Virus record (IMG/VR): IMGVR_UViG_3300027878_000003
Location: 1-64,000 of that record
DNA length: 64,000 nucleotides
Direction: 5' to 3' (one strand)
From: a virus
Part shown: positions 1-64,000 of the stretch, piece after piece
How positions within the stretch are numbered: position 1 is the stretch's first letter
Layout of the letters: every line of letters starts with the position of its first letter
Translations under genes and position numbers: made by a program
The notes under the pieces: model-generated
Database searches by the model: none
Seen by the model: only the letters and a program-made list of their open reading frames with translations
What the model was told of the DNA's origin: nothing

Positions 1-127
1 TGAATATTCAAAGTGGCGTTGGGCATCGCGTCACTATAAAATGCTCCAGTCCGGTTCATCGTAGAACGACTTTCCGGTGGGAGAAGCCTACTCTGTATGC
101 GAAGCATCAGTGTAGGAGTATGTCACC
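1..127. repeat. 127-bp direct repeat, copy 1 (contig edge)
   Basis: These bases are identical to 42599-42725, in the same orientation. The right boundary is sharp: after GTATGTCACC the two copies continue with different sequence. The left boundary is not visible because the window starts here. Near the right end the sequence folds into a hairpin (CTAC.CTG.ATGC / GCAT.CAG.GTAG) followed by GAGTATGTCACC, which resembles the right end of cyanobacterial IS200/IS605 elements. Its last bases supply the stop codon of the tape measure gene. A length of exactly 127 also equals a common assembler k-mer, so this is probably where a longer repeat broke the assembly. Confidence 0.85.
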
Positions 128-13433: not shown

Positions 13434-14252
13434 ATGTCACAAAAACTATCCGAAATCCAAATCACGATCAAAGGGCAGACGTTTACCTGTCCCAGGCTAT
13501 CAAACGAAAACTCCCTGTATTTTGGTTCGTTGCTCATGAACAGGGACGAGCTGCGGGTCTTTATCGAGGAAGAACAGCCTGAGCTTGCGATGGATATGAT
13601 GCAAGCGCGTTTGATTGAATCCAGCGAACAAATGTCCAAATTGTTCGCTCAGAAGGATCTTTCATCAGAAGCGATCGCAGAGCAAATCAACAATGAACAA
13701 GTTCATGCGATCGTTCAGCGGTTTATCGTCCGCGTCAACCAAAACCAGGTGCCAGGGGATTACATTCCAAACGTTCGGTATCAAGTTGCAAAGAGACTTA
13801 TAGAAGTCTTTCCCCAATTTGAATCAAATGGGTGGGTGACTGCCACATCCATCAACATGGACCTTGAAGACTTAATCACAGCACTCGCCATTCCCCTCTT
13901 TGGCACCATGTCATCCGCAGCAGAGAAAGCAGCAGAGACTCAGCCAGAAGCCAAGAAGCCAAAGTCTGAAAAGCCGAAGGGCTTCAAAGCCGAAGTGCAG
14001 AAAGCTACCAAGGGGTCAGAAGCGCAAGGCAGTGACCCTAACGTCGGAGACAAAGAAGAGCGTTTTGACGAACTTCTGGCAAGCCGGAACGAACTGCAAG
14101 CGCGGTTCGATAGCCTGCAAGCCCAGCTTGCAGGCAGCGCAGCGATCGACGTTACCGTGGTCGAAGACGATGCCCGCAAGGGACGAATTCTCAACCTTGA
14201 GAAGGAGCTTGAGGCATTGAAAGCCTCAGCCGAAACGTCTAAGATTAGCTAG
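13434..14252 (+). CDS. Hypothetical protein
   Basis: 272 aa. The N-terminal 150 residues look folded (ITIKGQTFTCPRLSNENSLYFGSLLMNRDELRVF), a Lys/Ala/Glu-rich linker covers about 160-205, and the C-terminus is a coiled coil (RNELQARFDSLQAQL, LNLEKELEALKA). No family recognised. It converges with the RHH-like gene on the other strand, with a 4-bp overlap of the two ends. Confidence 0.6.
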   Translation: MSQKLSEIQITIKGQTFTCPRLSNENSLYFGSLLMNRDELRVFIEEEQPELAMDMMQARLIESSEQMSKLFAQKDLSSEAIAEQINNEQVHAIVQRFIVRVNQNQVPGDYIPNVRYQVAKRLIEVFPQFESNGWVTATSINMDLEDLITALAIPLFGTMSSAAEKAAETQPEAKKPKSEKPKGFKAEVQKATKGSEAQGSDPNVGDKEERFDELLASRNELQARFDSLQAQLAGSAAIDVTVVEDDARKGRILNLEKELEALKASAETSKIS

Positions 14253-14449
14253 AGGTCAGAGATCTTCCGCTTGCGAGCGCGAGCACGGATACGTCGCGGG
14301 ACGGGGATGTTGCCCCCAGCTCCGGGTAGCGATCGGATAAGCTGCCGCATAACGTCCGTCATAGTTCGATTCGCATCCTTAGCAAAGCTTTTCAGCCTTT
14401 CCATCTCCTCTTCAGACACTCTGAAGTGCAGTTGTACCTCGGGTCCCAT
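14249..14449 (-). CDS. Ribbon-helix-helix-like DNA-binding protein
   Basis: 66 aa from MGPEVQLHF; nine further codons upstream are possible. A short strand (VQLHFRVS) followed by two helices (EEEMERLKSFAKD and TMTDVMRQLIRSL) matches the Arc/CopG ribbon-helix-helix pattern, with a basic tail (RRIRARARKRK). Such proteins repress promoters or bind centromere-like sites. It sits 370 bp from a tandem-repeat array and a primase gene, so copy-number or origin control is a reasonable inference. Confidence 0.55.
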   Translation of the reverse strand: MGPEVQLHFRVSEEEMERLKSFAKDANRTMTDVMRQLIRSLPGAGGNIPVPRRIRARARKRKISDL

Positions 14450-14638
14450 ATTTGTGTACCAGTGTGGTAATATCATATTAATCTAAAAAGATCGAATAAA
14501 TCGTTCTAGATAGAATATGCTGGTTTTCTGCCCTTAAATCCTTAGCTCTGAATCCTGATCTCAGGAGAGGAGTCCCCCAAAAATTGCCGTGACTTTAAAT
14601 CCCCACATCCGCACATTTACAAGCCTGCCTCCACGTAA

Positions 14639-14826: not shown

Positions 14827-15196
14827 TTCAAAAAAACAAACCTAATCGGTCACTGACATGACCTTTCAGGGCTTCAAACTAAACAACTTACTGGGTCAAT
14901 TAAGACCCTTCAGAGATTCAAACTAAACAACTTACTGGGTCAATTAAGACCTTTCAGGGTTTCAAACTAAACAACTTACTGGGTCACTCACATGACTTTT
15001 CAGCTCATTCAAACTAAACAACTTACTGGGTCACTCACATGACTTTTCAGCTCATTCAAACTAAACAACTTACTGGGTCACTCACATGACTTTTCAGCTC
15101 ATTCAAACTAAACAACTTACTGGGTCACTCACATGACTTTTCAGCTCATTCAAACTAAACAACTTACTGGGTCACTCACATGACTTTTCAGCTATT
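14827..15196 (+). repeat. Tandem 44/47-bp repeat array, candidate replication origin iterons
   Basis: A degenerate copy at about 14827 is followed by seven copies of the core TTCAAACTAAACAACTTACT-GGGTCA, starting at 14873, 14917, 14961, 15008, 15055, 15102 and 15149. Spacing is 44, 44, then 47 bp five times. In the 47-bp units the core is followed by CTCACATGACTTTTCAGCTCA. Each 47-bp unit holds a short inverted repeat (GGTCA/TGACT) and one micro-ORF MTFQLIQTKQLTGSLT whose TGA overlaps the next ATG. The array lies directly upstream of the primase gene, the usual place for iterons of a replication origin. Confidence 0.85.
14992..15183 (+). other. Chain of four overlapping 16-aa micro-ORFs
   Basis: Four identical ORFs, 14992-15042, 15039-15089, 15086-15136 and 15133-15183, each encode MTFQLIQTKQLTGSLT. 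Each stop overlaps the next start as ATGA. The last one couples to the 82-aa ORF at 15180, which couples by ATGA to the primase. No clear Shine-Dalgarno precedes the micro-ORFs. They may be a by-product of the DNA repeats rather than expressed peptides. Confidence 0.4.
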
Positions 15197-15428
15197 ACAG
15201 TCCATTCAGAATAGCACGATCGGATCAGTAAATTCACCGCTACAAAACAGGAATTTCCCTGGGGTAGCCGGAATCACTTACCTAGAAAAAAAGATTCCTG
15301 TAACAAACCAGGTGCGAACTGATTTGTTACAGCTCTTCAAATCTTTGTGCAATTCACCTTTAATTATCTCACAAATTAGCCCCTTCGTCACCAGAAATCA
15401 CCTTTTTCTGAGAGGAAGGAATTTATGA
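15180..15428 (+). CDS. Small protein coupled to the primase
   Basis: 82 aa, MTFQLLQSIQNSTIGS at the N-terminus, so its first codons resemble the upstream 16-aa micro-ORFs. It ends as ATGA with the primase start. The remainder has a Leu-rich segment (RTDLLQLFKSLCNSPLIISQISPF). It could be a leader peptide controlling primase translation or a small replication protein. No family recognised. Confidence 0.45.
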   Translation: MTFQLLQSIQNSTIGSVNSPLQNRNFPGVAGITYLEKKIPVTNQVRTDLLQLFKSLCNSPLIISQISPFVTRNHLFLRGRNL

Positions 15429-17344
15429 GATTCAACTCAGTTGTGCAACGTGGGCTTTTTACCGAGATATTCCCCCATCGGTTTGACTATATCTATGCTA
15501 ATCATGTGCATCCAGGCGATCGCCCCGACTGGCAGACCGAATCGCGTCACCCCCTCAACGATCGCCTCATCGAACAAGGTGCTCTTCTATACGGTGTCCG
15601 TTTCGGCGCACAGACTTCTTATGTCATGCTGGACATTGACGCTGGCAGTCCCTATCACCCCAGTCGCTGCAAAGAGGCAACAGCGAGGATGCTGGAATCG
15701 CTGGAACCGTTGGGGCTTGTCAGTTGTGTGACAATCAGCAGCTCTTTCAGTGGAGGATTGCACCTTTACTTCCCGTTCAGAGAGAAACAGAGTTCTTATG
15801 ACATCGCGGTAGTGGTTGCCACTACCTTAGAGAACGCAGGCTTTCCTTTGAAGGGCGGGCAGGTAGAGCTTTTCCCAGACCCCAAACCCTATACGGCTGA
15901 GGGCACCCGATCGCTATTCAACGCCCATCGGTTGCCGATGCAGGATGGATCGTTTCTCCTCGATGAGGATTTCCAGCCGACTAGCGCTTTCAAAGAAACA
16001 TTCCAAGAGCGGTGGGAGTGGGCTAAGGACAGGAATACTGACGTGAAGCGATCGGTGCTCCGGCGCAGGCTAAAGCAGGTGAAGCGCTGGAGATATCACG
16101 TCTCTGGTAAGGCAGACAAATTTCTCAACGACCTCAACGCTGAGATCGAGCTGGGTTGGACTGGTCCAGGGGAAACAAATTATCTCCTCGGTCGCATCAC
16201 TATGCGGTGCTTCATTTTCCACCATGTCTTAGCAGGTGGCTCACCTTTATCTGGGAAGCCTCTTGTAGATGCAATAGTGTCTATTGCTCGGGATCTACCT
16301 GGGTACAAAGAATTTTGCGGGCATCAGCACGACATTGAACATCGCGCCCAAGAGTGGGCACATTGCATTGAGGGCAGCAAGTATTTCCCCTACGGCACTG
16401 CTAAAGGAAAATACAAACCTAAAGCCTCAGACTCAACTACTACGTCCGAAGCGTCCCCAACCTGGAATCAACAACAAACCAGTAAAGCCAGGGATCGAAT
16501 TGCTAGGGCGATCGCGGTGATGCTCGATTCTGGTTCCTTGCCCAGTAGCCCCACCAGTCGATGCAAAAAGTTAGTAGCTGCCGGGATCGGTATGGCAACC
16601 CTCTACCGACACCGGGATTTATGGCACCCCGCTCACTTTATTGAGCTGGAGCCAGATTCGTCCGAAAACCCCGTCAAATATGAGGTTGGACAGTCAGACC
16701 GCGCTGAGGGCGCATCTGACTGTCACAGTCCTACAAGCTTATTTACAGCAACAGGCAGTAATCCTATGCCAGAACAGGCTTTCAGCGATCGTGACACCCC
16801 CCTAAGCCTGGTTTCAGGCAGTAATAGCCAGAACCCTTTACCAGATGAGTTTTCAGGCTTAAGTGCTCAGGATTGTGCTGCGGCGATGAGAGCTGCCTCT
16901 CAAGAGGCTCTGAGAATGGCTACTCAAATTAAAATTCAGTCGGTTGATCAGGCATATCTAGCCCGAATGCAGAGCTATCTGGACTCCAATGACCCGATTC
17001 TGATGGCAGAGGCGATCGCTTGGCAGGCTGTTGCCCGAAATAGTAGTCCGGCTGAGCCTGAACCTATAGTTCCCAACGCCATCCTTGTCCCTCTACCGCC
17101 CACTCCTCCTCCTATGCCACCACCCATTACCCAGTTAGTCCAATTCGAGGTTGCCGAGACGGGCGATCTATCCCATCTCCTGATGTCAATTGACCTCCAG
17201 CAGCGATGGCTGGACTGGAGTAAGGAACGAATTGTAATGGAGATGACTTCGCAGTTCGGGAAGGCAAAGCGATCGCTGTTAACTCCCTCAGAACTGGGGC
17301 AATGGCTCGCCTATTTAATGCCGGGAGGTCAGTTCAATGCATGA
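15425..17344 (+). CDS. Archaeo-eukaryotic-type primase / replication protein
   Basis: 639 aa. The N-terminal 220 residues fit the archaeo-eukaryotic primase fold: YVMLDIDAG with Asp70 and Asp72, the SGGLHL element with His113, and the strand GGQVELFPDP. A primase or primase-polymerase role in replication initiation is expected. The C-terminal half has a small-HTH-like region (about 355-400), then a long Pro/Ser-rich linker with HIP1 insertions and a final helical domain. AGGAAGGA precedes the ATG, and the tandem repeats upstream suggest it acts at an origin there. The family occurs on cyanobacterial plasmids and phages. Confidence 0.72.
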   Translation: MRFNSVVQRGLFTEIFPHRFDYIYANHVHPGDRPDWQTESRHPLNDRLIEQGALLYGVRFGAQTSYVMLDIDAGSPYHPSRCKEATARMLESLEPLGLVSCVTISSSFSGGLHLYFPFREKQSSYDIAVVVATTLENAGFPLKGGQVELFPDPKPYTAEGTRSLFNAHRLPMQDGSFLLDEDFQPTSAFKETFQERWEWAKDRNTDVKRSVLRRRLKQVKRWRYHVSGKADKFLNDLNAEIELGWTGPGETNYLLGRITMRCFIFHHVLAGGSPLSGKPLVDAIVSIARDLPGYKEFCGHQHDIEHRAQEWAHCIEGSKYFPYGTAKGKYKPKASDSTTTSEASPTWNQQQTSKARDRIARAIAVMLDSGSLPSSPTSRCKKLVAAGIGMATLYRHRDLWHPAHFIELEPDSSENPVKYEVGQSDRAEGASDCHSPTSLFTATGSNPMPEQAFSDRDTPLSLVSGSNSQNPLPDEFSGLSAQDCAAAMRAASQEALRMATQIKIQSVDQAYLARMQSYLDSNDPILMAEAIAWQAVARNSSPAEPEPIVPNAILVPLPPTPPPMPPPITQLVQFEVAETGDLSHLLMSIDLQQRWLDWSKERIVMEMTSQFGKAKRSLLTPSELGQWLAYLMPGGQFNA

Positions 17345-43420: not shown

Positions 43421-43676
43421 TGATTTTGTCCGTGGGACTAACGCGAATAATGGCAATGCCCCCTGCCGCCGTCGAAATCCATTGCAATGCTTGAAATGGC
43501 GTAAAGCTATCTTGAGCGGACTGTCGTGCTGCTGGAATCAACACCAGCAAAAGAACAGAAATTTGCAAGACAATTTCTATGGGAGCAATCCGAACTCCAA
43601 ACAAATAAACCCCATCAGAAGCACGGTTGGGACAAGAGGCAGGACAAATTGGATCGGATTTCGGCTCGTTTTCCAT
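43392..43676 (-). CDS. Small membrane protein
   Basis: 94 aa. One clear membrane helix (IEIVLQISVLLLVLIPAA, about 33-50) and a second weakly hydrophobic segment (QWISTAAGGIAIIRV). N-terminal CPASC may be a Cys pair. It lies divergent to the portal gene with a shared intergenic region of 93 bp. Could be a holin/antiholin or immunity-type membrane protein; nothing specific supports either. Confidence 0.45.
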   Translation of the reverse strand: MENEPKSDPICPASCPNRASDGVYLFGVRIAPIEIVLQISVLLLVLIPAARQSAQDSFTPFQALQWISTAAGGIAIIRVSPTDKINASLKLLGK

Positions 43677-43768
43677 GCATCAATATTTCCCAGAGCGATC
43701 GCCCCATTTGCAAATTCCTGATTTCTGCCAATCAGGGAACTCTACAAGAGAAATCATTGGCAAGGACT

Positions 43769-45760
43769 ATGACTGAAGAGTTTGGGGTGATGCGTACAGA
43801 CGGAGTGATAGAAAACCTGTCTACTGGGATGGGTGATCCAGCTTTTGACAAATCAGCGAATTACCAAGTCGTTCGGAACGATCGCCTCACCAAACTCGAT
43901 CTAGAGAACTTGTTTGAGGGCGCTTGGATACCCCAGGTCTGCGTCACAGCCTACCCCAAGGAAGCCGTTCGCAAGTGGCTAGAAATCAAGATGGGCGGCA
44001 AAACCTCAGACCGCACCAAAATCTCTGAGTTTGATAAGTACCAACAGAAGATTGGTGTTGCCGCCGCCTTTTCTAAGGCTGACACCTGGGCGCGGCTCTA
44101 TGGCGGTGCGGCGATCATCATCATTGCTGAAGATGGACAACCTTTCGATCGCCCCTTAAAAATCTCTACTCTAAAAAGCATTCGCGGGCTAAAGGTTCTA
44201 GACCGCCATCGCATCCGCCCCGTGATTGAATACAGTCTGATGGTGGAAGACCCAGAGTTCTATGAACTCATCCTGCCAGGGCAGATTGACGACAAGTTCA
44301 GGAAGATGTTAGGGCAGGAAGCTGGCACAGGCACCCGCGTCCACAAGAGTCGGGTTATTCGGTTTGATGGGGTAGAGATGCCGCCTGACATCATGCTCAG
44401 AAATGAGGGCTGGGGCACCTCCATTCTCAACCTGCTGTTTGATACATTTTCTCGATTTGAAGGCACCGATGCCAGTGTCACAACGCTGGTACAGGAATCC
44501 AGCCTCTTCGTCTATAAGATGAAGAACTTATCAGAAATGCTGGCAAAGGCAGATGAGAAGTCATTAGCTCAACTGCGGAACCGCCTCGCCGCATTCCGAT
44601 CCTCAAAGAGCAACTTCAAAATGCTCGTTGCCGACGCAGAAAAAGAAGATGTCTCGATCGTCACGCGCAATTTTGCCGGACTGCCAGACATCATGGACAG
44701 GCAACTCATCCGCATCGTCGGGGCGGCTCGCATCACCATGTCGGTGTTGTTTGGACAAGGACCCTCTGGGCTGGCAGCTCAGGGAGCTGGCGACACAGAA
44801 GCTAAAGTTTGGTCAAAGTTGGTGCAGCAACATCAGGTCGATGCCTACCAGGGCAAACTGCGATCGCCCGATGACGGTGGACTCTTTGACCTAATCTGGC
44901 AAGCCAAAGATAGCCCCACCAAAGGCAAGCTGCCAGAGGATTGGAGCTTTGATTGGATATCCCTGATTGAGGAAACCGAGGAAGAGCGAATCGCCAAACG
45001 CCTCAGTCAGAGCCAGGTCGATCGCGCCTACTTTGATATGAAGGTAGTCTTGCCAGAAGAGATCAGGTCATCCCGATTTGAGGGAGCTGAATACTCCACA
45101 GAGACAGTTCTAGATGCCAAGGCTTGGGCGAAGTCGCAAGAAGATCCGTTTGCTGAGCTGGGCGGTGAGGGGGGCGGTGAGGGGGGTGATCCCAATGCAG
45201 ACCCCAATGCAGACCCCTACGCAGATCTAAATGAAGACCCCAATGCCACCGGAGAGGAAGATCCTTTTGCCGCACTATCAGAAGAAGAAGCCCCACTGGA
45301 AGAAGCCCCACCGGAAGAGGAGAAACGAACTGACTCTGGCGATCGCCTTGAACAAACCGATTGCGATTGCGACAAGGAGTCAAAATCCAAGAAGAAGAAG
45401 GCAGTCAAGGGTAGACCGCTAGAAGATGTGGAGCAAGATATCGATCGAGAAGAGACTGCTGGCGTATACGCCAGCAGTCGAAAAGATGCCAAGGATGGCA
45501 AGGCTGATCCGGTTGACCTACTTGTCGATCGCTCAATGGAGAGCGCTTCAGGTCATGTCGTCGGCTGGGTTGACCAGATCTACGATTGGTTGGAAGGGCA
45601 TAGAACCGATGGTATGAGCCTGGAAGAGGTGGCTAATCGGTTGCCGGGATTATATGGGCAGCTAGACTCAGACGGGTTTGTGCAAAGCCTGGAAACTGGA
45701 ATGCAGTTTGGTGATTTGATTGGTCGGGGAGAGGTCTTAACAGAGATCGAAGAGGATTAG
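43769..45760 (+). CDS. Phage portal protein, DUF1073-like
   Basis: 663 aa from MTEEFGVMRTDG, preceded by AAGGA. The core matches the DUF1073 anti-CBASS/portal group: KYQQKIGVAAAFSKADTWARLYGGAAIIIIAEDG, GLKVLDRHRIRP, VHKSRVIRFDGVEMPP, WGTSILNLLFDTFSRFE and GAARITMSVLFGQGPSGLAAQGAGD. It forms the dodecameric DNA channel at the capsid vertex. The C-terminal 180 residues are an acidic, repeat-rich tail (DPNADPNADPYADLNEDPN) plus KRTDSGD, a Lys/Cys-rich patch and an in-frame palindrome (TAGVYASS). Unlike all other virion genes it is on the plus strand and apart from them. Confidence 0.8.
   Translation: MTEEFGVMRTDGVIENLSTGMGDPAFDKSANYQVVRNDRLTKLDLENLFEGAWIPQVCVTAYPKEAVRKWLEIKMGGKTSDRTKISEFDKYQQKIGVAAAFSKADTWARLYGGAAIIIIAEDGQPFDRPLKISTLKSIRGLKVLDRHRIRPVIEYSLMVEDPEFYELILPGQIDDKFRKMLGQEAGTGTRVHKSRVIRFDGVEMPPDIMLRNEGWGTSILNLLFDTFSRFEGTDASVTTLVQESSLFVYKMKNLSEMLAKADEKSLAQLRNRLAAFRSSKSNFKMLVADAEKEDVSIVTRNFAGLPDIMDRQLIRIVGAARITMSVLFGQGPSGLAAQGAGDTEAKVWSKLVQQHQVDAYQGKLRSPDDGGLFDLIWQAKDSPTKGKLPEDWSFDWISLIEETEEERIAKRLSQSQVDRAYFDMKVVLPEEIRSSRFEGAEYSTETVLDAKAWAKSQEDPFAELGGEGGGEGGDPNADPNADPYADLNEDPNATGEEDPFAALSEEEAPLEEAPPEEEKRTDSGDRLEQTDCDCDKESKSKKKKAVKGRPLEDVEQDIDREETAGVYASSRKDAKDGKADPVDLLVDRSMESASGHVVGWVDQIYDWLEGHRTDGMSLEEVANRLPGLYGQLDSDGFVQSLETGMQFGDLIGRGEVLTEIEED
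45454..45479. repeat. Dispersed palindrome inside the portal gene
   Basis: A perfect 26-nt palindrome around CTGGCGTATACGCCAG is read in frame as TAGVYASS within the C-terminal tail of the portal. Same family as 9875-9910, 18136-18157 and 61005-61026. Confidence 0.75.
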
Positions 45761-46871: not shown

Positions 46872-48250
46872 TACCCCTCAAACGTCTCCATACTCAGCTT
46901 TCCCTTTAAGAATCCCCAAGCCCAGATAGCTGGATAGACGTAATAGTTAGCGTCCAGCCATCCTTCTAGATGCAGATGAGGACCAGTGCCCCCATCCCCT
47001 GTTGTCGCAAAGCGATCGCCCACCGCATATTCACCAGGCTGACAATCCTGGAGATGCATCAACGCAAAGGATGCACGAGGGTTAGACTTCAGCGTAAAAA
47101 CGGCGTACTTCCCCGCTCGCCCATAGTCGTTGGCACAAGCAACCGTTGCCGCAATGGGCGCAACCAGAGGTGTGCCCACGGGCGTACCAATATCAAACCC
47201 CTTGTGAGCGCGGCAAGGGGGCAGTGTTGGCTTTCCAGGATTACAGCCCGCGATCGCCAGTCCTGTTTCAGGGTTGCTTGTCCTAATTCTCAAAACATCA
47301 GTAACGGGGAAGCCCGCGATCGTATCCCCAACATGCATCGGCTGTAGGAGTGCAGCCGGAATTTTGGCTGATAGTTGTGGACTTGCAGCATTACTTTGCA
47401 GCCCCAGAGCTGAGGCTGAGCCAGGGATGATCTGAGCCTGCTGTTGCTCTAACAGAACCAGGTAACGATGCCAGGTTCTGTCCAAGCTGATCGCTTCCTG
47501 TCCACCGAAATCGGCTCCAATGCTAGAGCCATCCTCCTTGGGGAAAGATGCCCATTCAATTGCTGCTGCCCAGACAGCTTGATTAAACTCCCCTCGGTCG
47601 ATCGCAATCAACCCAACCTGGGTAACTGAAACGGATTTCATCAAATGCTTATAGCCACCGACAAGCGCAAAGTTAGCAGTGGCTACCAAATCTTGATTCA
47701 ACGGTGCCGCCTCGCCGATCGCCTTCTTTGTGTTTGGGTCTTGGGTGTACAGCTTCCCACCTGCTGCCACCAGGCGAGCGATCACCGAGTCCCAGGTTGT
47801 CGGCAGAAATTGGTACGCTCCAAATGCCGAAGTCTTTGTCGTTCGCCCAATGCAATCATCCGCAAACTTGCCCGTTGCAATCCAAAAGCATTGATCTGGG
47901 AATGTAACGAAATCACCTTTGTAGACGTTATGCCCATACCAAACCCGATAAGGGGAAACGCCTAACGAATTAGGATTTGTCCCCTCGTTTTGCTGGATTA
48001 ACAAGAGCATTGCCCGCATTGCGATCGTGCGAGCAGCCGCAGGGTATTTAACAAGATAGGGCTTCGCTTTATCGTCAGTTGGCGCAGGCGCAGAGGCAGG
48101 CGCGGCAGCATACGCAGCCTCCAGAGCTGTTCGATCGCCCAACCATTGCCCAATCGCTGCTGTTTCTCTATATCGATCGCACCCAAACATAAGGGCACAT
48201 GCACATACAGCGATCGCCATGAGGACAAATCGCCACCAATTATTCTTCAT
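46871..48250 (-). CDS. Lipoprotein with GH104-like lysozyme and M23 peptidase domains
   Basis: 459 aa. An N-terminal signal with a lipobox-like MFGC (Cys24) suggests export and lipid anchoring. Residues about 75-255 match lambda-endolysin-type (GH104) muramidases: LLIQQNEGTN (Glu89), YRVWYGH, SAFGAYQFLPTTWD. A C-terminal M23 peptidase domain has HKGFDIGTPVGTPL and HLHLEG. The protein would cut both glycan and peptide parts of peptidoglycan. Linked to an FtsK-like ATPase and small membrane proteins, it suits local wall opening for DNA transfer; phage lysis or entry is the alternative. Confidence 0.78.
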   Translation of the reverse strand: MKNNWWRFVLMAIAVCACALMFGCDRYRETAAIGQWLGDRTALEAAYAAAPASAPAPTDDKAKPYLVKYPAAARTIAMRAMLLLIQQNEGTNPNSLGVSPYRVWYGHNVYKGDFVTFPDQCFWIATGKFADDCIGRTTKTSAFGAYQFLPTTWDSVIARLVAAGGKLYTQDPNTKKAIGEAAPLNQDLVATANFALVGGYKHLMKSVSVTQVGLIAIDRGEFNQAVWAAAIEWASFPKEDGSSIGADFGGQEAISLDRTWHRYLVLLEQQQAQIIPGSASALGLQSNAASPQLSAKIPAALLQPMHVGDTIAGFPVTDVLRIRTSNPETGLAIAGCNPGKPTLPPCRAHKGFDIGTPVGTPLVAPIAATVACANDYGRAGKYAVFTLKSNPRASFALMHLQDCQPGEYAVGDRFATTGDGGTGPHLHLEGWLDANYYVYPAIWAWGFLKGKLSMETFEG

Positions 48251-50468
48251 GCTTGGGACCCCACACGCTAAAGGCTCCCTCGTAATGGGCGATCGCCTCC
48301 AGCAGTTGAGGTTTTAGCCTTTGAGACGAACCCCTATACTGGTCACCAAAGACGCGAATCCCCAGCTCTGTCTCCGTTAGCTTCTTGATAGATCCACCGT
48401 TTATCTCCTGAATTTTGTCTTTACGAACCTGAATAACTTTGTCGTAGATGCTCTCAAATTCAGGATCTACAGGGGCGATCGCTTCTGTGGGCGGCGGAGA
48501 GACGCTACGGCTTCTGGGAACAGGTTTGACCAGTGTGGCTGGAGCAACTGCTGGAAATGCTGCTGTTCTTTGGTTTGAGAATTGAGGGTTGGGGAGACTA
48601 CCAAATAAATTGTCGATTGGAGCGCCTTCCCGACTCATCAGTTGTTCATGAACCTGATTGATGGTTCGCATCGGTCTTTCGCCGTAAGACTGCATCACTT
48701 GCTGACTCAGTGAGTCAATGAGCCAGTGTGGTGTAAACAAAATTTGAACCCGCATAGGTTCAGGATTGTCAGGGGTAATGATGTAGGAATCGCCCATTTC
48801 GCCTAGTTCAGTGCCAATTTTATGGGTCTTGCCTAGCGCCATCTCGGATGTAGATTCGCCCATAACTTTTAAGCAAACGCGATACCCGAACTGCTCTCTC
48901 GTAGCAGAGTCATAAGGACCATAGCTATCAGCACTAGGGCGCTGCGTGCAGCCGAACAGATGCACGCCAAACTTACGCAACTCTTGAGAGATTTGCCGCA
49001 GCCATTGTGTAAATTGCTTTTTCCGACCGCCAAACAAATCTTTAGTGCCGGAGGCTTCATCCAGTAAGACAACAATGTGTTCCAGTATCGGTAAGTAGGG
49101 GCGCGGCTTCCCCTTCCGAGAACTTGCCGATGACTGTCTCCATTTTTGGAACTCAGCAGAATGTCGCCAGCGATCGAAATCAGGATCGACCGCCTTGTTG
49201 TAGGCATCGATCGTCAGACTTTTGATCACTGCGCCAGAATTCATCTGTTGATCGCGCCAGGACAAATAATCCTCATAGGCAACGCGATTATAGCTATCTA
49301 GATCGTTTGACCGAGCCACCAAAAATAAATCTTCCCGACGCTTGCATTCAATCTGCAAAAGCCCTGGAGTCGAATGAGGTTTGCTGTCGGAACTATCCCC
49401 TTCTTCAATGTCTTCAACAAAACGTAGAACAGTAGAGATATCGGCACTTTTCGATAGCACTCCCAGGTCTTTCCAAAACCAAGGCAGGAAAGATTCTAGA
49501 TGTTGTGCATTGACTTGCTGGATATCAATAATTACAAATTTGACGAACCAGGGCGATCGATGGCGAACAATCATGCCAACGACCAACGTGTTAATAAATG
49601 CCGTCTTACCTCCACCTGTCATGCCTGCTAATGACAGGTGACAGCCAGTAGGTTTGGAAAAATCGAATTCAACAGTTTCTCCTTCAGTATTAATTCCAAT
49701 CCATGCGGTTAGAGGAGAGCCTGGGATTGGCTCAGACCCTTGCTTGATTAACGAGTCAAGTAAAACTGGCTCCCATGTAGGATTGGGAACTTCAATAGCG
49801 ATATATCCCTCTCGTGGCACGATCGCCACCTTGCGATTGCCGCCAGACAGCCCCAGAACTTTGAAGTGTTCTGCTAGATCTTCAAAGCCCTTAGCCCCCC
49901 GAAAAATCGTAGTGCCGTTTACGTCAACCTGCTGCATTTTATAAACGGAGACACGAGGATTTCCCGTGGCAATGCCGACACAGCAAAATTTGTCAGGGCT
50001 AATGCCACGGCAGCGGCTTATGGCTTCAGCAAAGACATCACCACGTTCCTGTGGTGTTTTTGCCGCCAGCATCTTTGCCTGAAGGCTAATTGTTTTAACA
50101 ATGGGAGCCGCCGAAGTAGAGGGCGTTTGGGTATTGGGAGTTTGAAGAACTGGGGTTTGGGGAGTCTTGGCTTGAGGAGCTTGAGAACCAATCCAATGGT
50201 GATATTCGGGATTCTGAAGGTTCACCTCAACCTCTGTTATCGCCCTATCAATGGCAGTAGCCAGCACGTTCTTAGGAAAGTGCTGCGGATATCCCTCTGA
50301 TTGCAGCTTTTTAATGAATTGGGCGATCGCTTCTTTCTCACTTGTAGTCTGCTTTCTTGCCGTCAGAAAATGATCCGTCAACTCGGAGTGAAGGACAGCT
50401 AAAGCTGCTGACTCAACAGCGGGCGGCGGAGTAGGCATAGGACGGAAGCGACGGAATAAAGACAGCAT
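48240..50468 (-). CDS. FtsK/SpoIIIE-type DNA translocase
   Basis: 742 aa. An FtsK/SpoIIIE ATPase domain spans about 225-600 with Walker A GMTGGGKT (282-289) and Walker B VVLLDEA (466-472), plus LFGCTQRPSADSYG and SYIITPDNPEPMRVQILF. There is no N-terminal membrane region, unlike chromosomal FtsK. A C-terminal ~80 aa (FESIYDKVIQVRKDKIQEINGGSIKKLTETELGIRVFG) resembles a winged-helix DNA-recognition domain. These enzymes pump double-stranded DNA as hexamers. The operon of small membrane proteins and a wall hydrolase suggests a TraB-like transfer role. Confidence 0.75.
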   Translation of the reverse strand: MLSLFRRFRPMPTPPPAVESAALAVLHSELTDHFLTARKQTTSEKEAIAQFIKKLQSEGYPQHFPKNVLATAIDRAITEVEVNLQNPEYHHWIGSQAPQAKTPQTPVLQTPNTQTPSTSAAPIVKTISLQAKMLAAKTPQERGDVFAEAISRCRGISPDKFCCVGIATGNPRVSVYKMQQVDVNGTTIFRGAKGFEDLAEHFKVLGLSGGNRKVAIVPREGYIAIEVPNPTWEPVLLDSLIKQGSEPIPGSPLTAWIGINTEGETVEFDFSKPTGCHLSLAGMTGGGKTAFINTLVVGMIVRHRSPWFVKFVIIDIQQVNAQHLESFLPWFWKDLGVLSKSADISTVLRFVEDIEEGDSSDSKPHSTPGLLQIECKRREDLFLVARSNDLDSYNRVAYEDYLSWRDQQMNSGAVIKSLTIDAYNKAVDPDFDRWRHSAEFQKWRQSSASSRKGKPRPYLPILEHIVVLLDEASGTKDLFGGRKKQFTQWLRQISQELRKFGVHLFGCTQRPSADSYGPYDSATREQFGYRVCLKVMGESTSEMALGKTHKIGTELGEMGDSYIITPDNPEPMRVQILFTPHWLIDSLSQQVMQSYGERPMRTINQVHEQLMSREGAPIDNLFGSLPNPQFSNQRTAAFPAVAPATLVKPVPRSRSVSPPPTEAIAPVDPEFESIYDKVIQVRKDKIQEINGGSIKKLTETELGIRVFGDQYRGSSQRLKPQLLEAIAHYEGAFSVWGPKHEE

Positions 50469-55737: not shown

Positions 55738-57068
55738 AGTTGACACTCCCCGGCGTGAACGCACGGGGATTCTTTAATCTAAGACATGACTTGCTCATGC
55801 AGGATTGCTCCAACTTGAGTAGAGATCTCATCTCCTAAAGCGTTACTTGCATCTAGTGCAAAGGTTCCGATATGCCCTACCGTACCCAATCCCCGACTGA
55901 GGATGTTTCTAGCTGCGTTGTGATCTCTATCTAGCACACAGCCGCACTTACAGATATGCGTTCTGGTACTCAAAGACTTCTTCACAATCTCACCACAGCT
56001 AGAGCATTCTTGGCTTGTGTATTGAGGATTCACAGCAATCGTGATCCGCCCAAACACCTTCCCAAAATATTCAATCCAGACTCGGAATTGAAACCAAGAT
56101 GCATCGTTAATCGACTTAGCTAGACAATGATTCTTCACCATATTTTTGATTCTCAAATCTTCGTAGGCGACTACATCGTTAGATGTGATTACGCACCGTG
56201 CAAGTTTGATTGCATGGTCTTTACGCTGCCTACTTATTTTGAGATGGCGCTTACCTAGAATCCGTCTGGCTTTTCGTCTGTTGATTGATCCTTTAACCTT
56301 GCGAGAAACGCGGCGCTGTGACCGTTTGAGAACGATTTCACCTTTACGGAGAAACTTAGGATTCTCAATCATCACACCATCAGAATCGGTGTAATACTCT
56401 TTCAAGCCCACATCCAACCCAACGGCATTTCCCGATGGCTCCAACACCTCTAAGCGATTCACATCAACGCAAAACTGAACGTAGACACCATCTGCACGTC
56501 TAACCAGTCTGACCCGTTTGATTTGGTCAGGCTGATAGAAACCTAGATCGCGTGTTCCTTTCAGCTTTAATCGCCCAATGTTCTTTTTATCGGTGAACGT
56601 GATGGATTTACGATCATCTGCCAGCTTCCATCCCGTCGTTTTGTATTCGACAGAACGGCAGTCTTTTTGGAACTGCGGAAACCCTTTTTTACCGGGGATA
56701 CCTTTTTTGCAGTTCTCAAAAAACCGCGAAATAGCAGACCATGCTCTTTCGGCGCTAGATTGCCTAGCTTGGGAGTTGAGTTCATTAGCAAACGGAAATT
56801 CTTTAGCCAGAACCGCGCAATATTTATTGAGGTCGTACTTGTTCACTTTTGGATTGTCGATCCAAAACCGAAGCGCTTTATTGCGAACGAATTGAGCAGT
56901 ACGAATTGATTCATCTACTGCGCTGAACTGGCTTGATTTCCCGTATGTTTTGAACTCTAGAACTAGCATTGCTTCAACTCGTTTTGATATTCTTATACTA
57001 ACATACTCAGCACAAGAATGGTGAATACCAAGAGAAAGCCGTCCTTAAAGGACGGGGTTTTCAACCCA
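55738..57068 (-). mobile_element. IS200/IS605-family element, TnpB only
   Basis: The tnpB gene lies between a left-end hairpin (CCGTCCTT/AAGGACGG, 57039-57055) and a right-end hairpin (CCCCG/CGGGG, 55748-55768) followed by AGTGTCAAC. No TnpA transposase is present, so mobility would need one in trans. It abuts the GCAC array, whose first copy lies at 57098, so it may have inserted at the edge of that array. The region after the stop likely encodes the omega RNA. Confidence 0.75.
55779..56969 (-). CDS. tnpB: TnpB RNA-guided nuclease
   Basis: 396 aa, a usual length. The HTH_OrfB N-terminal region (AVDESIRTAQFVRNKALRFW) and a central beta domain precede a complete RuvC nuclease: Asp186 in AVGLDVGLKEY, Glu270 in VVAYEDLRIKNM, zinc finger CSSCGE..CKCGC (322-342), and DRDHNAARN with Asp349. 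TnpB uses an omega RNA from the element's right end to cut DNA next to a transposon-adjacent motif. All catalytic residues are intact, unlike the TnpB-like protein at 19739-21427. Confidence 0.92.
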   Translation of the reverse strand: MLVLEFKTYGKSSQFSAVDESIRTAQFVRNKALRFWIDNPKVNKYDLNKYCAVLAKEFPFANELNSQARQSSAERAWSAISRFFENCKKGIPGKKGFPQFQKDCRSVEYKTTGWKLADDRKSITFTDKKNIGRLKLKGTRDLGFYQPDQIKRVRLVRRADGVYVQFCVDVNRLEVLEPSGNAVGLDVGLKEYYTDSDGVMIENPKFLRKGEIVLKRSQRRVSRKVKGSINRRKARRILGKRHLKISRQRKDHAIKLARCVITSNDVVAYEDLRIKNMVKNHCLAKSINDASWFQFRVWIEYFGKVFGRITIAVNPQYTSQECSSCGEIVKKSLSTRTHICKCGCVLDRDHNAARNILSRGLGTVGHIGTFALDASNALGDEISTQVGAILHEQVMS

Positions 57069-57097
57069 AATTTTCGATAAGACAGGAATTGCGAGGG

Positions 57098-58295
57098 CAC
57101 AAATAACAGGCTTAAAAGCGATCGGCATACGACTCAAGATAATCTACGGCACATAAATGCTGACGATTGGCACCGATCATGGCAGAAGAATCGGCACTCT
57201 GGAGTGACAAGATCGGCATGTGAAGTTGTAGCTTTGACTGGCGATCGCACGCGGAATGGAAGAATAGGCACTCCGAAGACAGTATCCACGATCGCACAGC
57301 AGGTCAATTTTGTCGGCACTGCGATCGCACTGGAGAGATGACTGAAGTCGGCACACAATCAGGATGTTGGAGGCTTCGGCACTACATTTGAGGGGGCGAT
57401 CGACACAAGAATATGATCTGCACCTAGAGAAATAGATAGCGATAGCACTAGGAGCAACCGAAGGCACATTTGATATGTTGCCATGGCGATTGCACGATGA
57501 ATACTCTTGATCTGCCGTTCAAAATTGGCACAAGTTGGGGTCAATACATCGGCACCTTACAGGCTAAAGATCCCGCACAAAAAATATGCTCTGCACAGGA
57601 TATGGGCGCGATCGCACGATTAAAACCCTGCGTTTGGCATTGGCGATCGGCACTACATCGGCACTGATAGCATTTCTTTGTCTTGGCTTTTCGGCACTCC
57701 GCGATCGCACCTGTAAAAGTTAAATACCCCACGCCTGCTTGAGCTTAAGCTTGTACAGCGTCTCTCTTTCCATCATGTGTTTAAAGAGATTAACGAGAGA
57801 TTTCTTGGTTTTAGCCTCGCTCCAATCTTTCGTTTGAAGCTCTACCGATTTGAGTTGAAACTGCTGCTCAATCGAGAGGGTGACAGTGATTTGGTCGCTC
57901 ATGACAGAACCTATTGCGTTCGGCGTATTGTACCCAGGCTAGGCGATCGCACAGCGGGGGAAATTGGTTGGCACAGCGGGGAAAGTTTGGTTGGCACAGC
58001 GGGGAAAGTTTGGTTGGCACAGCGGGGAAAGTTTGGTTGGCACATCAGGGAAAATTGGTTGGCACTAATCTGATTTGAACAAAGGGCGATTCGGATAGTT
58101 GGCACAATGAACTCTGCAAGCGATCGCACTATGTAAATGAGCATTGGCACGGAGACAGGACTCGCTCGGCATAACGTAGGTTTAGGGAAATCGGCACACC
58201 GTAGGCGATCGCACTTCTGTTTGGCATGAGATTGGTTAGCGATCGGCACTAATTGTACTATTTTGGGTTGGCACAAATATTTGATTTGATTGGCA
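57098..58295. repeat. GCAC motif array at about 23-bp spacing
   Basis: About 45 copies of GCAC (mostly TCGGCAC, TTGGCAC or GATCGCAC; some GCAT) fill this stretch, usually 21-25 bp apart. Examples start at 57149, 57170, 57194, 57247, 57268, 57294, 57316, 57552, 57575 and 57614. At 57949, 57971, 57994, 58017, 58040 and 58062 the surrounding unit becomes an almost exact 23-bp tandem repeat (GCACAGCGGGGAAAGTTTGG plus TTG). Only the small gene at 57720-57902 lacks the motif. The array runs from the IS element to the terL stop. It is probably a binding array for partition, transfer or packaging. Confidence 0.8.
57720..57902 (-). CDS. Small DNA-binding-like protein inside the GCAC array
   Basis: 60 aa: a strand-like N-terminus (QITVTLSIEQQFQL) and two helices (SVELQTKDWSEAKTKKSLVNLFKHMMERETLYKLKLKQ) that could form a ribbon-helix-helix. 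The gene is surrounded by the GCAC array but contains none of it, as expected for a selfish or centromere-binding regulator encoded beside its sites. AGG precedes the ATG. Confidence 0.5.
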   Translation of the reverse strand: MSDQITVTLSIEQQFQLKSVELQTKDWSEAKTKKSLVNLFKHMMERETLYKLKLKQAWGI

Positions 58296-58310
58296 AAGTG
58301 CAGAGTTTTT

Positions 58311-60017
58311 TTAGGCATTCGCCATCCAATCAAAGTCAGACTGCTCAATGCGAGGAGCAAAGGCATACATCAAGGCATCAAAGAAGTCAGGAGAAGAAAT
58401 GCCTCGCGTCTCCATCTCTGGCTTGCTCTCAATAATGATCTGCCCAATGTCGTTGAATCTATAGAGCGGCTGGCTCAGTTGCCCAATCAAATCAGCATGG
58501 TTAGGGATAGAGATCAACTCTGCGATCGGGTGTTCATGAAGACGATTGACGTATTCAAAGGTGCGTTCAAACCGCATTCGCACATTCCAGCACACCTCAG
58601 CTCTAAAGTTCTTGAAAACATCTTCTGCTTGGCGATCGAAACTAGGGTAAAACCGCTTGCTAGTACCCCCACCCCCCGCAATCCCCTGGAGTTCAAAGGG
58701 CAGATTGTCCATACTTCTCAATGTGCCGCCCGTACCTGCACCAACGCCCATACGGTCATAGTTGAGGTATCCAACCTTGAGGTCTTCGCAGATGTGCAGT
58801 GCTTTGTATGCCGTTTGGGTGGTGTTTCCTAGCCTCCACTCATGAATCCACTCGTCTTTAATGACGACACCATGCCGCATGATCAGAACGTTCCGATCGC
58901 CCCCTTCGTCCGAGATATCTAGACCTGCAACGCGATCGCCAAAGCATGGCAGCTTTAGCCCGACCGCCGCCATTACCCACTCGTTGGGGATGCACACACC
59001 CTCTTGGGATGCCGCATAGTCAATGTCAATCTCCTGAGCCAGGATGATTTTGTCAAGGGTTGCCTTACGCTTCTCGTACCAGGGATACTTCGCCCCCACG
59101 GGGGAATCGCGCCCATTGCCCTGTTTGACGATGATGCCTTCAGGGCTTTTGAGTTCCCAGTAGTTCTTTCTAGGGTCATCCTTCCAGTGGCTCTGGAATA
59201 CAGGGTACTGCCCTGAGAACCGCTTCTTGTAGAACGGGTTGCCAATGCCGTTGGGTGTGGAGACATAGATCCGCACCTCGGAGTTCTCTGATACCGCCGC
59301 ATCCACAATGTTGGGGTGGGCAATGAAGGCAAACTCATCTAGGAAGTACAGCCGCGATCGCCCCCCTCGCCCCATGTTGTCTCCGGCTTCCCCGGTGACG
59401 GATGAGCCGTTGCTGCGGTTGATTAACTTACCCTTGTTGTCATCGTATTTTGGTGGTCGCATCCATCCGGGCAAGTTGCGGAGAACGATGCGGATCTTCT
59501 CAAATAGACAGTCGGGGTTGCCCAGCTCGTCAACCAACATGGACTTGCGCGAACCAAAGGTAATCTTGACCCCTGGCACGAACACGAGCTGGTGTGCAGC
59601 AAAGCCGCAACAGAGGAAACTTAAGCCTGCATCTCTGGACTTTTCGACTACGCCCGATTCTTTACCCTTAACTCGATCTTGCAGCCATTGCAGGAATGCC
59701 GCCTGGATATCGAAGAGGTCAAACGGGATGGTGGAGGGCGATCGCCGGGGGTCATAGCTCCAGCCCCAGTTGTTGAAGAAATGCACAGGGTCTTTGCACC
59801 GTTGCATCTCCTCTTTGCGAAACTCCATGTCGGTGATGGCGCGGTTGAAGAGTTCCATCCGTCTGGCGATCGCCGCTACGAGCTTGGGTTCAGCGTCGGG
59901 TTCCTGGCAGGCTTCCCATGCCAACTGCACCCCAATGGGAATGGCAGTAGCTTTAGGTCTAGACTCTGCCCGTTCCCTGGCTTCCTCTAATTTCTTGCCA
60001 AGGGTTGCAATGCCCAT
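58311..60017 (-). CDS. terL: Terminase large subunit
   Basis: 568 aa. The ATPase has KSRDAGLS (126-133, Walker A-like) and LYFLDE (224-229, Walker B). The nuclease has Asp368 in AGLDISDEGGD and a late Asp in FFDALMYAF (about residue 550). It pumps and cuts DNA during packaging. The ATG overlaps the small subunit stop (TAATG). Downstream lies the GCAC array, close to where a pac or cos site can lie. Confidence 0.93.
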   Translation of the reverse strand: MGIATLGKKLEEARERAESRPKATAIPIGVQLAWEACQEPDAEPKLVAAIARRMELFNRAITDMEFRKEEMQRCKDPVHFFNNWGWSYDPRRSPSTIPFDLFDIQAAFLQWLQDRVKGKESGVVEKSRDAGLSFLCCGFAAHQLVFVPGVKITFGSRKSMLVDELGNPDCLFEKIRIVLRNLPGWMRPPKYDDNKGKLINRSNGSSVTGEAGDNMGRGGRSRLYFLDEFAFIAHPNIVDAAVSENSEVRIYVSTPNGIGNPFYKKRFSGQYPVFQSHWKDDPRKNYWELKSPEGIIVKQGNGRDSPVGAKYPWYEKRKATLDKIILAQEIDIDYAASQEGVCIPNEWVMAAVGLKLPCFGDRVAGLDISDEGGDRNVLIMRHGVVIKDEWIHEWRLGNTTQTAYKALHICEDLKVGYLNYDRMGVGAGTGGTLRSMDNLPFELQGIAGGGGTSKRFYPSFDRQAEDVFKNFRAEVCWNVRMRFERTFEYVNRLHEHPIAELISIPNHADLIGQLSQPLYRFNDIGQIIIESKPEMETRGISSPDFFDALMYAFAPRIEQSDFDWMANA

Positions 60018-60688
60018 TAGGTCTGCGCCTCGGGTAGTTCATCGGGAGTCAGGGCTGCGAACGCCGCCTGCATCTGGTCAATCATGGTTTGATAGCTGCT
60101 GCCCGCTGACTCTAGGAGGCTATCGGGTAGCATGTCGGCTTCGACCAAAGTCTCGATCGCCCGTAATACTTTGTCCTGTTGGGTTTCCTGATCCGTGGCA
60201 GAGCGAGATAACTTGTCGGCTAGTTCGAGGTAGGAGATGGCATCACGGGATGTCCACTTGGCAGGGGCGAAGATGATGGTCTTGCCGTCTTCAGACTCGG
60301 TGACCTTTTGGATTAAGGGGTAGTCCAACATCTCTCTGGCTCGCTCAATTAGGGTCAAGGAGAGATCCCAAGACTTGTCCCTAATCTCGGCACGACGGCG
60401 ATCGCCATCACGTTGCTTCTTCACCCAGCGCTTCTCAGACTGCTGTTGCGATCGCCCGTCCCAGGCTTCGGCTCTGGCTGTCCAGCTCCAGGTCTTTTGG
60501 GTCTTGCGCCAGTTGGGAGGGGTTGATCCGGTCTTAGGCTGTCCTCTTCGGGCACGGTCAGAGTTGTAGGCAGCTAGAAGCGATCGCCCGGAACCCAACA
60601 GCTTGAATAGGGTAAATCGGTCGTACCAATCGTTGGGTTCGTCGGGTTGCCGTTCCCAAATATCAGTGTTGGAGTCATTGCCTGTCAC
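60017..60688 (-). CDS. Terminase small subunit (putative)
   Basis: 223 aa directly upstream of and coupled to terL. An N-terminal region with FTLFKLLGSGRSLLAAYNSDRARRG looks like an HTH, and a central helical part (WDLSLTLIERAREMLDYPLIQKV) is typical of oligomerising terminase small subunits. It recognises the packaging site. Confidence 0.7.
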   Translation of the reverse strand: MTGNDSNTDIWERQPDEPNDWYDRFTLFKLLGSGRSLLAAYNSDRARRGQPKTGSTPPNWRKTQKTWSWTARAEAWDGRSQQQSEKRWVKKQRDGDRRRAEIRDKSWDLSLTLIERAREMLDYPLIQKVTESEDGKTIIFAPAKWTSRDAISYLELADKLSRSATDQETQQDKVLRAIETLVEADMLPDSLLESAGSSYQTMIDQMQAAFAALTPDELPEAQT

Positions 60689-62794: not shown

Positions 62795-63201
62795 GGCAAA
62801 GGCTGGGAGTGCCAGCCTTCAATAATTGAATGATCAGCCCCAATGAAGACGGGCAAGCAGGGCGCACCGTCTTCATCAAATGGCGATCGCTGCCAGCGGT
62901 TCCAAACTGCCTCGTGAGGTGGAAAATCAAGATGCTCTTTAGGAACGCGACCGTCAATGCAGAAGAGGATATCAGCATCTTCAACGCTAGAGAACCAGGC
63001 AGAGCCAAAGTTGCAAGCGCCTGTCCAGGTGAGCTGTTTCCGCATGACGAGGATTTCCCGGTCATCGTCATGGTCCGCCAGCTTGGTCAAGTGAAACCAA
63101 TAGTCGCGGGGCGATCGCTGCGCTTTGGCATTCCAACTTCGGGGATGACCAGTTTTGGGCAACTGATAAAGGTAGGCTTCAGGCATGGGTCTAAGCTGCA
63201 T
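62791..63201 (-). CDS. Hypothetical protein
   Basis: 136 aa from MQLRPMPEAYLYQ, with GGAG 13 bp upstream; starts at 63186 or 63258 are alternatives. It overlaps the EAL gene by 11 bp with this start. YQLPKTGHPRSWNAKAQRSPRDYWFHLTKLADHDDDREILVMRKQL and a Trp-rich end suggest a folded soluble protein. Function unknown. Confidence 0.45.
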   Translation of the reverse strand: MQLRPMPEAYLYQLPKTGHPRSWNAKAQRSPRDYWFHLTKLADHDDDREILVMRKQLTWTGACNFGSAWFSSVEDADILFCIDGRVPKEHLDFPPHEAVWNRWQRSPFDEDGAPCLPVFIGADHSIIEGWHSQPLP

Positions 63202-64000
63202 GGGGCAAAGCTTCTCCAGCCGGATCAAATAGGTGTCCTTGTCCCCAGAGGGAAACATCTGCTTGAATTGCTAGAGCTGTGATAATTCTAGATTGAGCTT
63301 CTGTCTCAATCCACTCCGCAACGATCTTTAATCCTCTACGACCTGCCAAGCTGAGGATGTCCAGGGCGATCGACTGGTAGGCTGGCTCTGCAATCCGTCG
63401 CATGATTGAGCCGTCAATCTTGATCCAGTCCAAGGGCAGGCAGAGCTGATGCAAGCCTGACTGACCTTGGGCAAAGTCGTCCAAAGCAATTTCGCACCCT
63501 AGCTCTGCCAGTCCACCTAGAGTCTGACAGGCTTGATTGAGATCGAACTCTTGATGCTCGGTGACTTCAAAGACGAGCTGATCCGAGGTAGCACCCGTCA
63601 GTATCAAGGTCTTTTCGACAAACGAGGGGAGTTGAGGGTCGGAGACGGATGCTGCTGAAAGATTGATAAAAACTTTTTGATTGGGATTGCCGCTAATGGC
63701 TTCCAAGGCATCCTTGACCACCCATTGATCTAGGTTCTTGCTGAGTTCTTCGCTAGGGAAAATATAAGGCAAAAAAGCCCCTGGAAATAGAACTTCACCA
63801 TCCAATACGTATCGAATTAAGAGTTCAGTCAGTGTCTTTTGCTCATGCACCTCGCCTGCGTTGTGAAGCGGCTGAATCGCTTCCTCGCAAAGGAAAAGGT
63901 AGTCTTTGCCCACAGAAGAAAATGCATCAAGCATTCGATATTTCCACTCCTCTTTTTTCCGAAACGCCTCTGCTGCGTCTACCAGGGTCTGGCGCAAGGA
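63191..64000 (-). CDS. EAL-domain protein (partial)
   Basis: At least 269 aa; a Met lies at 63997, so the true start may be inside or beyond the window. An EAL phosphodiesterase domain is visible: LTELLIRYVLDGEVLFPGAFLPY (EAL region), KVFINLSAAS, VFEVTEHQ, IALDDFAQGQSGL, DWIKIDGS and IVAEWIETEAQ. Such enzymes hydrolyse cyclic di-GMP, a regulator of biofilm and motility. The first motif is not a canonical EAL, so activity is uncertain. An upstream sensor or GGDEF part may lie outside. Confidence 0.75.
   Translation of the reverse strand, partial: SLRQTLVDAAEAFRKKEEWKYRMLDAFSSVGKDYLFLCEEAIQPLHNAGEVHEQKTLTELLIRYVLDGEVLFPGAFLPYIFPSEELSKNLDQWVVKDALEAISGNPNQKVFINLSAASVSDPQLPSFVEKTLILTGATSDQLVFEVTEHQEFDLNQACQTLGGLAELGCEIALDDFAQGQSGLHQLCLPLDWIKIDGSIMRRIAEPAYQSIALDILSLAGRRGLKIVAEWIETEAQSRIITALAIQADVSLWGQGHLFDPAGEALPHAA

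Follow-up and report, generated by a model that had tools for sequence, protein, structure and literature searches.

A one-way array of GCAC-type motifs next to the terminase gene of a phage as a candidate set of protein-docking sites

Genes and features around the array

The window analysed here, a stretch of 64 kb, belongs to a 66,991-base IMG/VR virus record and encodes the large and small terminase subunits (TerL and TerS), portal, major head protein, head protease and minor head proteins, along with tail-fibre-like proteins, an endolysin-like protein, a tyrosine integrase, and an FtsK-like ATPase. HIP1 octamers (GCGATCGC) occur 105 times across the 67-kb record. Given this number, and since the phage carries nblA and an IS605-type element with relatives in many cyanobacteria, we are almost certain that it infects a cyanobacterium.

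Between the IS605-type element and terL, the plus strand carries an array of short GCAC motifs that is split in two by nblA. The first half (57097–57710) extends from the IS605-type element to the nblA stop codon and contains 24 exact GCAC cores plus degenerate GCAT and ACAC copies, all of which, exact or degenerate, lie on the plus strand without exception. The second half (57946–58296, plus strand) extends from the nblA start to the terL stop, with 13 exact GCAC cores and the variants TCGGCAT, TTGGCAT, and TTGGCAA. To the left, the array is adjoined by the IS605-type element (55740–57080, minus strand; tnpB at 55779–56969), copies of which are found in many cyanobacteria with up to 76–77% DNA identity; homology to these genomic copies stops just short of the first motif. 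On its right, the array adjoins the 3′ end of terL (58311–60017, minus strand), which encodes a large terminase subunit of 568 aa, and terS (60017–60688, minus strand) follows at 1.7 kb from the array. The gene for the FtsK/SpoIIIE-like ATPase (742 aa), a candidate reader of polar sites, is located at 48240–50468 on the minus strand.

The gene enclosed by the array (57720–57902, minus strand) had been described in the first-pass annotation as a 60-aa ribbon-helix-helix (RHH)-like gene. Instead, we found that its product is the phycobilisome degradation protein NblA, matching Pfam PF04485 over residues 9–56 of 60 (E 6e-12, 46.3 bits versus a gathering cut-off of 25). Its identity to the chromosomal nblA genes that match best is 39–51%, and among 367 cyanobacterial genomes 100 carry a relative, whereas no match to it was found in the annotated phage collection. 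The array comes within 9 bp of the nblA stop and approximately 44 bp of its start. As the IS-element homology ends before the first motif and nblA lies inside, the array occupies all the non-coding DNA from the IS element to the terL stop, except for the ~44 bases ahead of the nblA start codon.

Several other features of the record were noted. The portal gene (43526–45760) is encoded on the strand opposite to terL and 12.5 kb apart from it, whereas phages of Acinetobacter, Vibrio, and Bordetella whose TerL is related have the order TerS-TerL-portal. An ORF at 123–7862 encodes 2,579 aa with no Pfam match, and its neighbour is a 643-aa protein partly similar to the related phage G389 described below. 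Near the right end of the record, an EAL-domain protein of the c-di-GMP phosphodiesterase family (63191–64000, with the ORF continuing to 64066 in the record) could be an auxiliary gene of the phage, or else belong to host DNA past the prophage edge. Finally, the cumulative skew reaches its minimum at 40.7 kb, away from the array, and a replication origin or terminus was therefore rejected as an explanation for it.

Motif, polarity, spacing, and spacers

On the plus strand of 57081–58310, GCAC occurs 37 times, compared with 8.3 ± 2.6 expected and a maximum of 16 in 1,000 dinucleotide shuffles, and GTGC occurs once in 57001–58320. The figure of about 45 GCAC motifs given earlier is reached only by including degenerate copies of the GGCAT kind. 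The variants named in that annotation do predominate, as 28 of the 37 exact copies read TCGGCAC (10), TTGGCAC (10), or ATCGCAC (8), the remainder being a few others. Alignment of the copies yielded the consensus WYSGCAC, present in ~41 one-way copies over 1.2 kb. Allowing up to one mismatch to the three main variants, we counted 41 sites on the plus strand and 6 on the minus strand; with 41 sites per ~41 slots of 23 bp, occupancy is nearly complete. Outside the array, the motif is neither avoided nor of clear polarity in the phage genome (50 occurrences versus 58 ± 8 expected; 30 forward and 20 reverse).

Spacing had been reported as mainly 21–25 bp. Among exact GCAC sites this is true of only about half of the gaps, the others including distances of 11–13, 28–36, and 40–53 bp, whereas with one mismatch allowed 25 of 39 neighbour gaps measure 20–26 bp (median 23). 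Random placement of the sites, with a minimum distance of 8 bp between them, produced 6.8 ± 2.3 such gaps and never more than 17 in 5,000 trials. The effect persisted when the near-exact tandem copies described below were left out (14 of 32 strict gaps at 20–26 bp versus 6.3 ± 2.2, P ~0.001). The GCAC count is thus well above that of shuffled sequence, and the 20–26-bp gaps are far above random placement. The register is local only, as no global register was seen in Fourier analysis, where peaks did not rise clearly above random placement. Altogether, the one-stranded, phased array described earlier is real, statistically strong, and unusual, with its site count, gap regularity, and gene identity now corrected.

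Beyond the 7-bp motif, the information content of the alignment columns is near zero, and spacers are as different from each other as shuffled ones (identity 0.257 versus 0.255 ± 0.005). This contrast between motif and spacer is partly circular, since the units were located by the motif, but occupancy and strand bias are independent of that. The one stretch that departs from this picture is a near-exact 23-bp tandem block (GCACAGCGGGGAAAGTTTGGTTG) on the plus strand, which had been placed near 57949–58062 and which we measured at 57949–58065 (5.2 copies, 92% matches); it is a recent local duplication and the only such block within the array. A decayed satellite was rejected as the origin of the array, because motif, orientation, and spacing are kept while the rest is not; a satellite that had drifted to random spacers should also have lost its motif. 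Of the 105 HIP1 octamers in the record, the seven inside the array all read GCGATCGCAC, and AC follows none of the remaining 98. Such a bias would be expected if it is GCAC that must be kept, with HIP1 sites forming around it.

No Rfam family matched the array at E values up to 1, and the folding energy of its first half is at the level of shuffled sequence on both strands (z 0.35 and 0.36). A structured RNA element is hence unlikely and was rejected. We also considered a transcribed guide array made of very short repeats and unique spacers of 14–18 nt, which would explain why the short conserved joints are separated by unique stretches of similar length and why a TnpB gene lies next door. However, that TnpB belongs to the IS element, whose homology to genomic copies does not continue into the array, no RNA structure was seen, and the 20 testable spacers had no match beyond chance to this phage or to G389. 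A guide array is unsupported by these data and was rejected; we regard it as barely credible.

Candidate readers and competing explanations

A protein-binding array fits the results best, since motif, orientation, and spacing are kept, the spacers are random, and RNA structure is absent. The sites (WYSGCAC, mostly TCGGCAC, TTGGCAC, or GATCGCAC) are about 23 bp, or two helical turns, apart. In iterons and centromeres, an asymmetric one-way site every two turns brings successive molecules onto approximately the same face of the DNA, where they can touch. By the same geometry, a sequence-specific protein may read WYSGCAC and place one molecule on each unit, all on roughly one side of the helix, and contacts between neighbouring molecules would generate a cooperative nucleoprotein stretch. 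Such a stretch might serve genome packaging, with the phage's own TerS as the first candidate reader. Cooperative binding on one face of the DNA was also the proposal of the first-pass annotation; its further argument, that a DNA-binding gene is embedded in the array, does not hold, the 60-aa gene being nblA. We tentatively place first, with somewhat more doubt than confidence, the reading of the locus as a one-way array of ~41 candidate binding sites used for cooperative docking in a phage DNA transaction, packaging being the first candidate. As to the transaction itself, packaging is slightly favoured, closely followed by segregation or loading of the FtsK-like motor.

The array lies where a pac site would be sought, close to the terminase genes, as the final exact copy of the motif stops at 58274, leaving 36 bases to the terL stop, in agreement with the earlier statement that it ends there. 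TerL is ~39% identical to Acinetobacter phage terminases. Searches with TerL, NblA, the FtsK-like protein, and a 266-aa tail-region protein identified a single close relative in IMG/VR, G389 (IMGVR_UViG_2917587430_000002, 52 kb), with TerL, major head protein, and portal 57%, 58%, and 56% identical, respectively. In this relative we found no array, nblA, FtsK-like gene, or tnpB element. The two TerS proteins share only their C-terminal 36 aa, and the rest of the G389 protein (locus L285, 5037–5792) matches HTH-type families that were not seen in TerS of this phage, so that the DNA-recognition module may possibly have been swapped between the two related phages. No relatives of TerS were found in the phage collection, and among 80 TerL-related IMG/VR loci only the C-terminal stretch of G389 was recovered; a generic scan of the same 80 loci for other phased one-strand motifs gave nothing comparable. 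We favour TerS as the putative reader because the array lies beside terL and because TerS has diverged together with it, while the 1.7 kb that separate the array from terS, the shorter length and few repeats of known pac sites, and the small part that pac repeats play in binding by the isolated SF6/SPP1 TerS domain speak against packaging. The docking reading as a whole is weakened by a motif that is neither avoided nor clearly polar in the rest of the genome and by the failure to find a second array in the collections searched. In this single comparison of two phages, the array, the N-terminal part of TerS, the FtsK-like gene, and nblA differ together. Both packaging and FtsK-directed translocation are compatible with this co-variation, which is proof of neither; with the FtsK-like gene, nblA, and the tnpB element missing from G389 as well, the joint absence cannot be pinned on TerS.

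Alternatively, the array could be a clt- or KOPS-like loading site from which the FtsK-like ATPase translocates phage DNA with polarity. The motif is asymmetric and strictly polar, like FtsK and TraB sites, and the phage encodes an FtsK-type motor that is missing, along with the array, from G389. This protein matches FtsK_SpoIIIE (PF01580, E 9e-10) and an FtsK chain (2ius, E 3e-15), but the similarity is confined to the motor, and no winged-helix domain could be demonstrated in AlphaFold models made without an alignment (mean pLDDT 50 for the C-terminal 88 aa and 38 for the full length). As the gene is also 6.6 kb from the array and the motif has no genome-wide polarity, we consider a loading site for this motor decidedly unlikely. 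It appears very unlikely that an RHH protein reads the array as the partition centromere of an extrachromosomal prophage. Centromeres read by RHH proteins are typically phased direct repeats, and the phage does encode a 75-aa RHH/NikA-like protein (14249–14476). Nevertheless, the adjacent RHH gene on which the centromere role had leaned is gone, the gene inside the array being nblA, and the absence of an adjacent centromere-binding gene weakens partition. The RHH gene is 43 kb off, beside a 47-bp tandem array of its own; no ParA, ParM, or TubZ match to Pfam or PHROGs was found in the subset of window ORFs scanned; and the tyrosine integrase suggests integration. That other array (14848–15193, 7.5 copies, 93% matches) is situated just upstream of genes at 15180–15428 and 15425–17344, the latter with a weak LigD prim-pol match, and is itself a candidate for replication iterons or a centromere.

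The position of nblA raises the question of whether the array regulates this gene or titrates a host transcription factor as a DNA decoy. It brackets nblA closely on both sides (9 bp from the stop and ~44 bp from the start), but no array was found beside nblA at the 30 best-matching chromosomal loci, and forty evenly spaced sites flanking one 60-aa gene exceed the needs of a promoter. To our knowledge, no known cyanobacterial regulator site matches WYSGCAC, and we regard a role of this kind as highly improbable.

A different explanation is that the array is a diverged HIP1-linked tandem repeat from the host, spread by slippage and HIP1 maintenance and without phage function. When 386 cyanobacterial genomes were scanned with a triple-motif pattern, matches were mostly coding or simple tandem repeats, but at least five genomes contained one-way intergenic arrays of (G)CGATCGCA[C/T]. 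The modal spacing in the seven chromosomal arrays measured is ~26 bp. Such arrays, the fresh 23-bp tandem block and seven HIP1 sites of the phage array, and an adjoining IS element common in cyanobacteria all favour this origin. On the other hand, spacers in the seven arrays are 41–87% identical versus 0.27 in the phage array for this comparison, and the commonest spacings in the phage array are 22–24 bp. All chromosomal sites but one are ATCGCA[C/T] and the GGCA type is absent, whereas 26 of 34 WYSGCAY sites in the phage array are of the GGCA type and 8 of 34 of the ATCGCA type; the GGCAC sites are beyond explanation by HIP1 maintenance. In 359 kb sampled from another cyanobacterial genome, the one with the best NblA match, no 400-bp stretch held more than 3 motifs, compared with 13 in the phage. 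The array may have started as a HIP1-AC-type repeat, although it is not an ordinary member now, and a functionless repeat of host origin seems on balance unlikely. As a separate observation, chromosomal GCGATCGCA[C/T] arrays are many (eight loci recorded), one-way, intergenic, and spaced at ~26 bp; they join a few recurrent cassettes, for instance TCCCAACATCCCCAAACA and ACAACCCCAATTTTAAA, and one genome (G157) holds at least five of them in 80 kb.

A second array of the phage kind was found neither among the matches listed in exact-pattern scans of the 386 cyanobacterial genomes nor among those listed for IMG/VR, which either arose by chance or were repeats in coding sequence, for example in collagen-like genes; in scans of this type a divergent array could go unnoticed. 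Matches listed in a genome-contig pattern scan were due to chance, in GC-rich genomes. The array DNA showed no similarity to annotated phages and plasmids. In the data searched, it is carried by one phage. Going beyond the preferred docking array, we would hold it doubtful that the locus represents an undescribed kind of phage DNA control strip, in which dozens of polar 7-bp sites two turns apart let a putative phage or host protein polymerise along 1.2 kb for packaging, segregation, or polar translocation.

More generally, non-coding arrays that keep a short motif and its polarity while their spacers are random indicate protein binding of a sort that escapes ordinary homology searches. Should the reader be TerS or the FtsK-like motor, the array would be a loading site of unusual length; should it be a host factor, the array would offer a handle on a cyanobacterial DNA-binding protein. 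One-way HIP1-AC arrays, for their part, are abundant in some cyanobacterial intergenic DNA, and our literature search found no description of them or of the phage motif.

Comparison with known repeat systems

The pac site of SPP1 spans the start of its terS gene, and known pac sites are far below 1.2 kb in length, with few repeats. The phage array resembles pac sites such as the SPP1 boxes in consisting of direct repeats in non-coding DNA close to the terminase genes, but it is 1.2 kb long and located at the 3′ end of terL, whereas known sites are short and lie at terS. When the DNA-binding domain of SF6/SPP1 TerS was studied in isolation, its binding depended very little on the pac repeats (PMC4737164). 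With Streptomyces clt and FtsK KOPS, the array shares a short, polar, asymmetric motif and an FtsK-type motor encoded in the same element. TraB of Streptomyces assembles at clt by recognising 8-bp repeats (PMC4170104); the known clt is a locus of 8-bp TRS repeats, unlike the ~41 sites over 1.2 kb and the different motif seen here. Plasmid centromeres read by RHH proteins are likewise direct repeats about two helical turns apart, but in the phage no RHH or partition NTPase gene is adjacent, and the embedded gene is nblA.

Phage-borne nblA has been reported for PaV-LD (PMC10343443) and, as cited in PMC7156551, for the Microcystis myovirus MaMV-DC. As an auxiliary gene carried by a cyanophage, the nblA described here is comparable to that of PaV-LD, and differs in being located inside an array. 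A CRISPR array was rejected, as its repeats would be of ~20 nt or longer and the conserved part here is 7 bp. Finally, the chromosomal HIP1-AC arrays, which are also one-way and intergenic and carry a GATCGCA[C/T] joint every ~26 bp, are conventional tandem repeats with nearly all joints of the ATCGCA type, whereas the phage array combines random spacers with mostly GGCAC joints.
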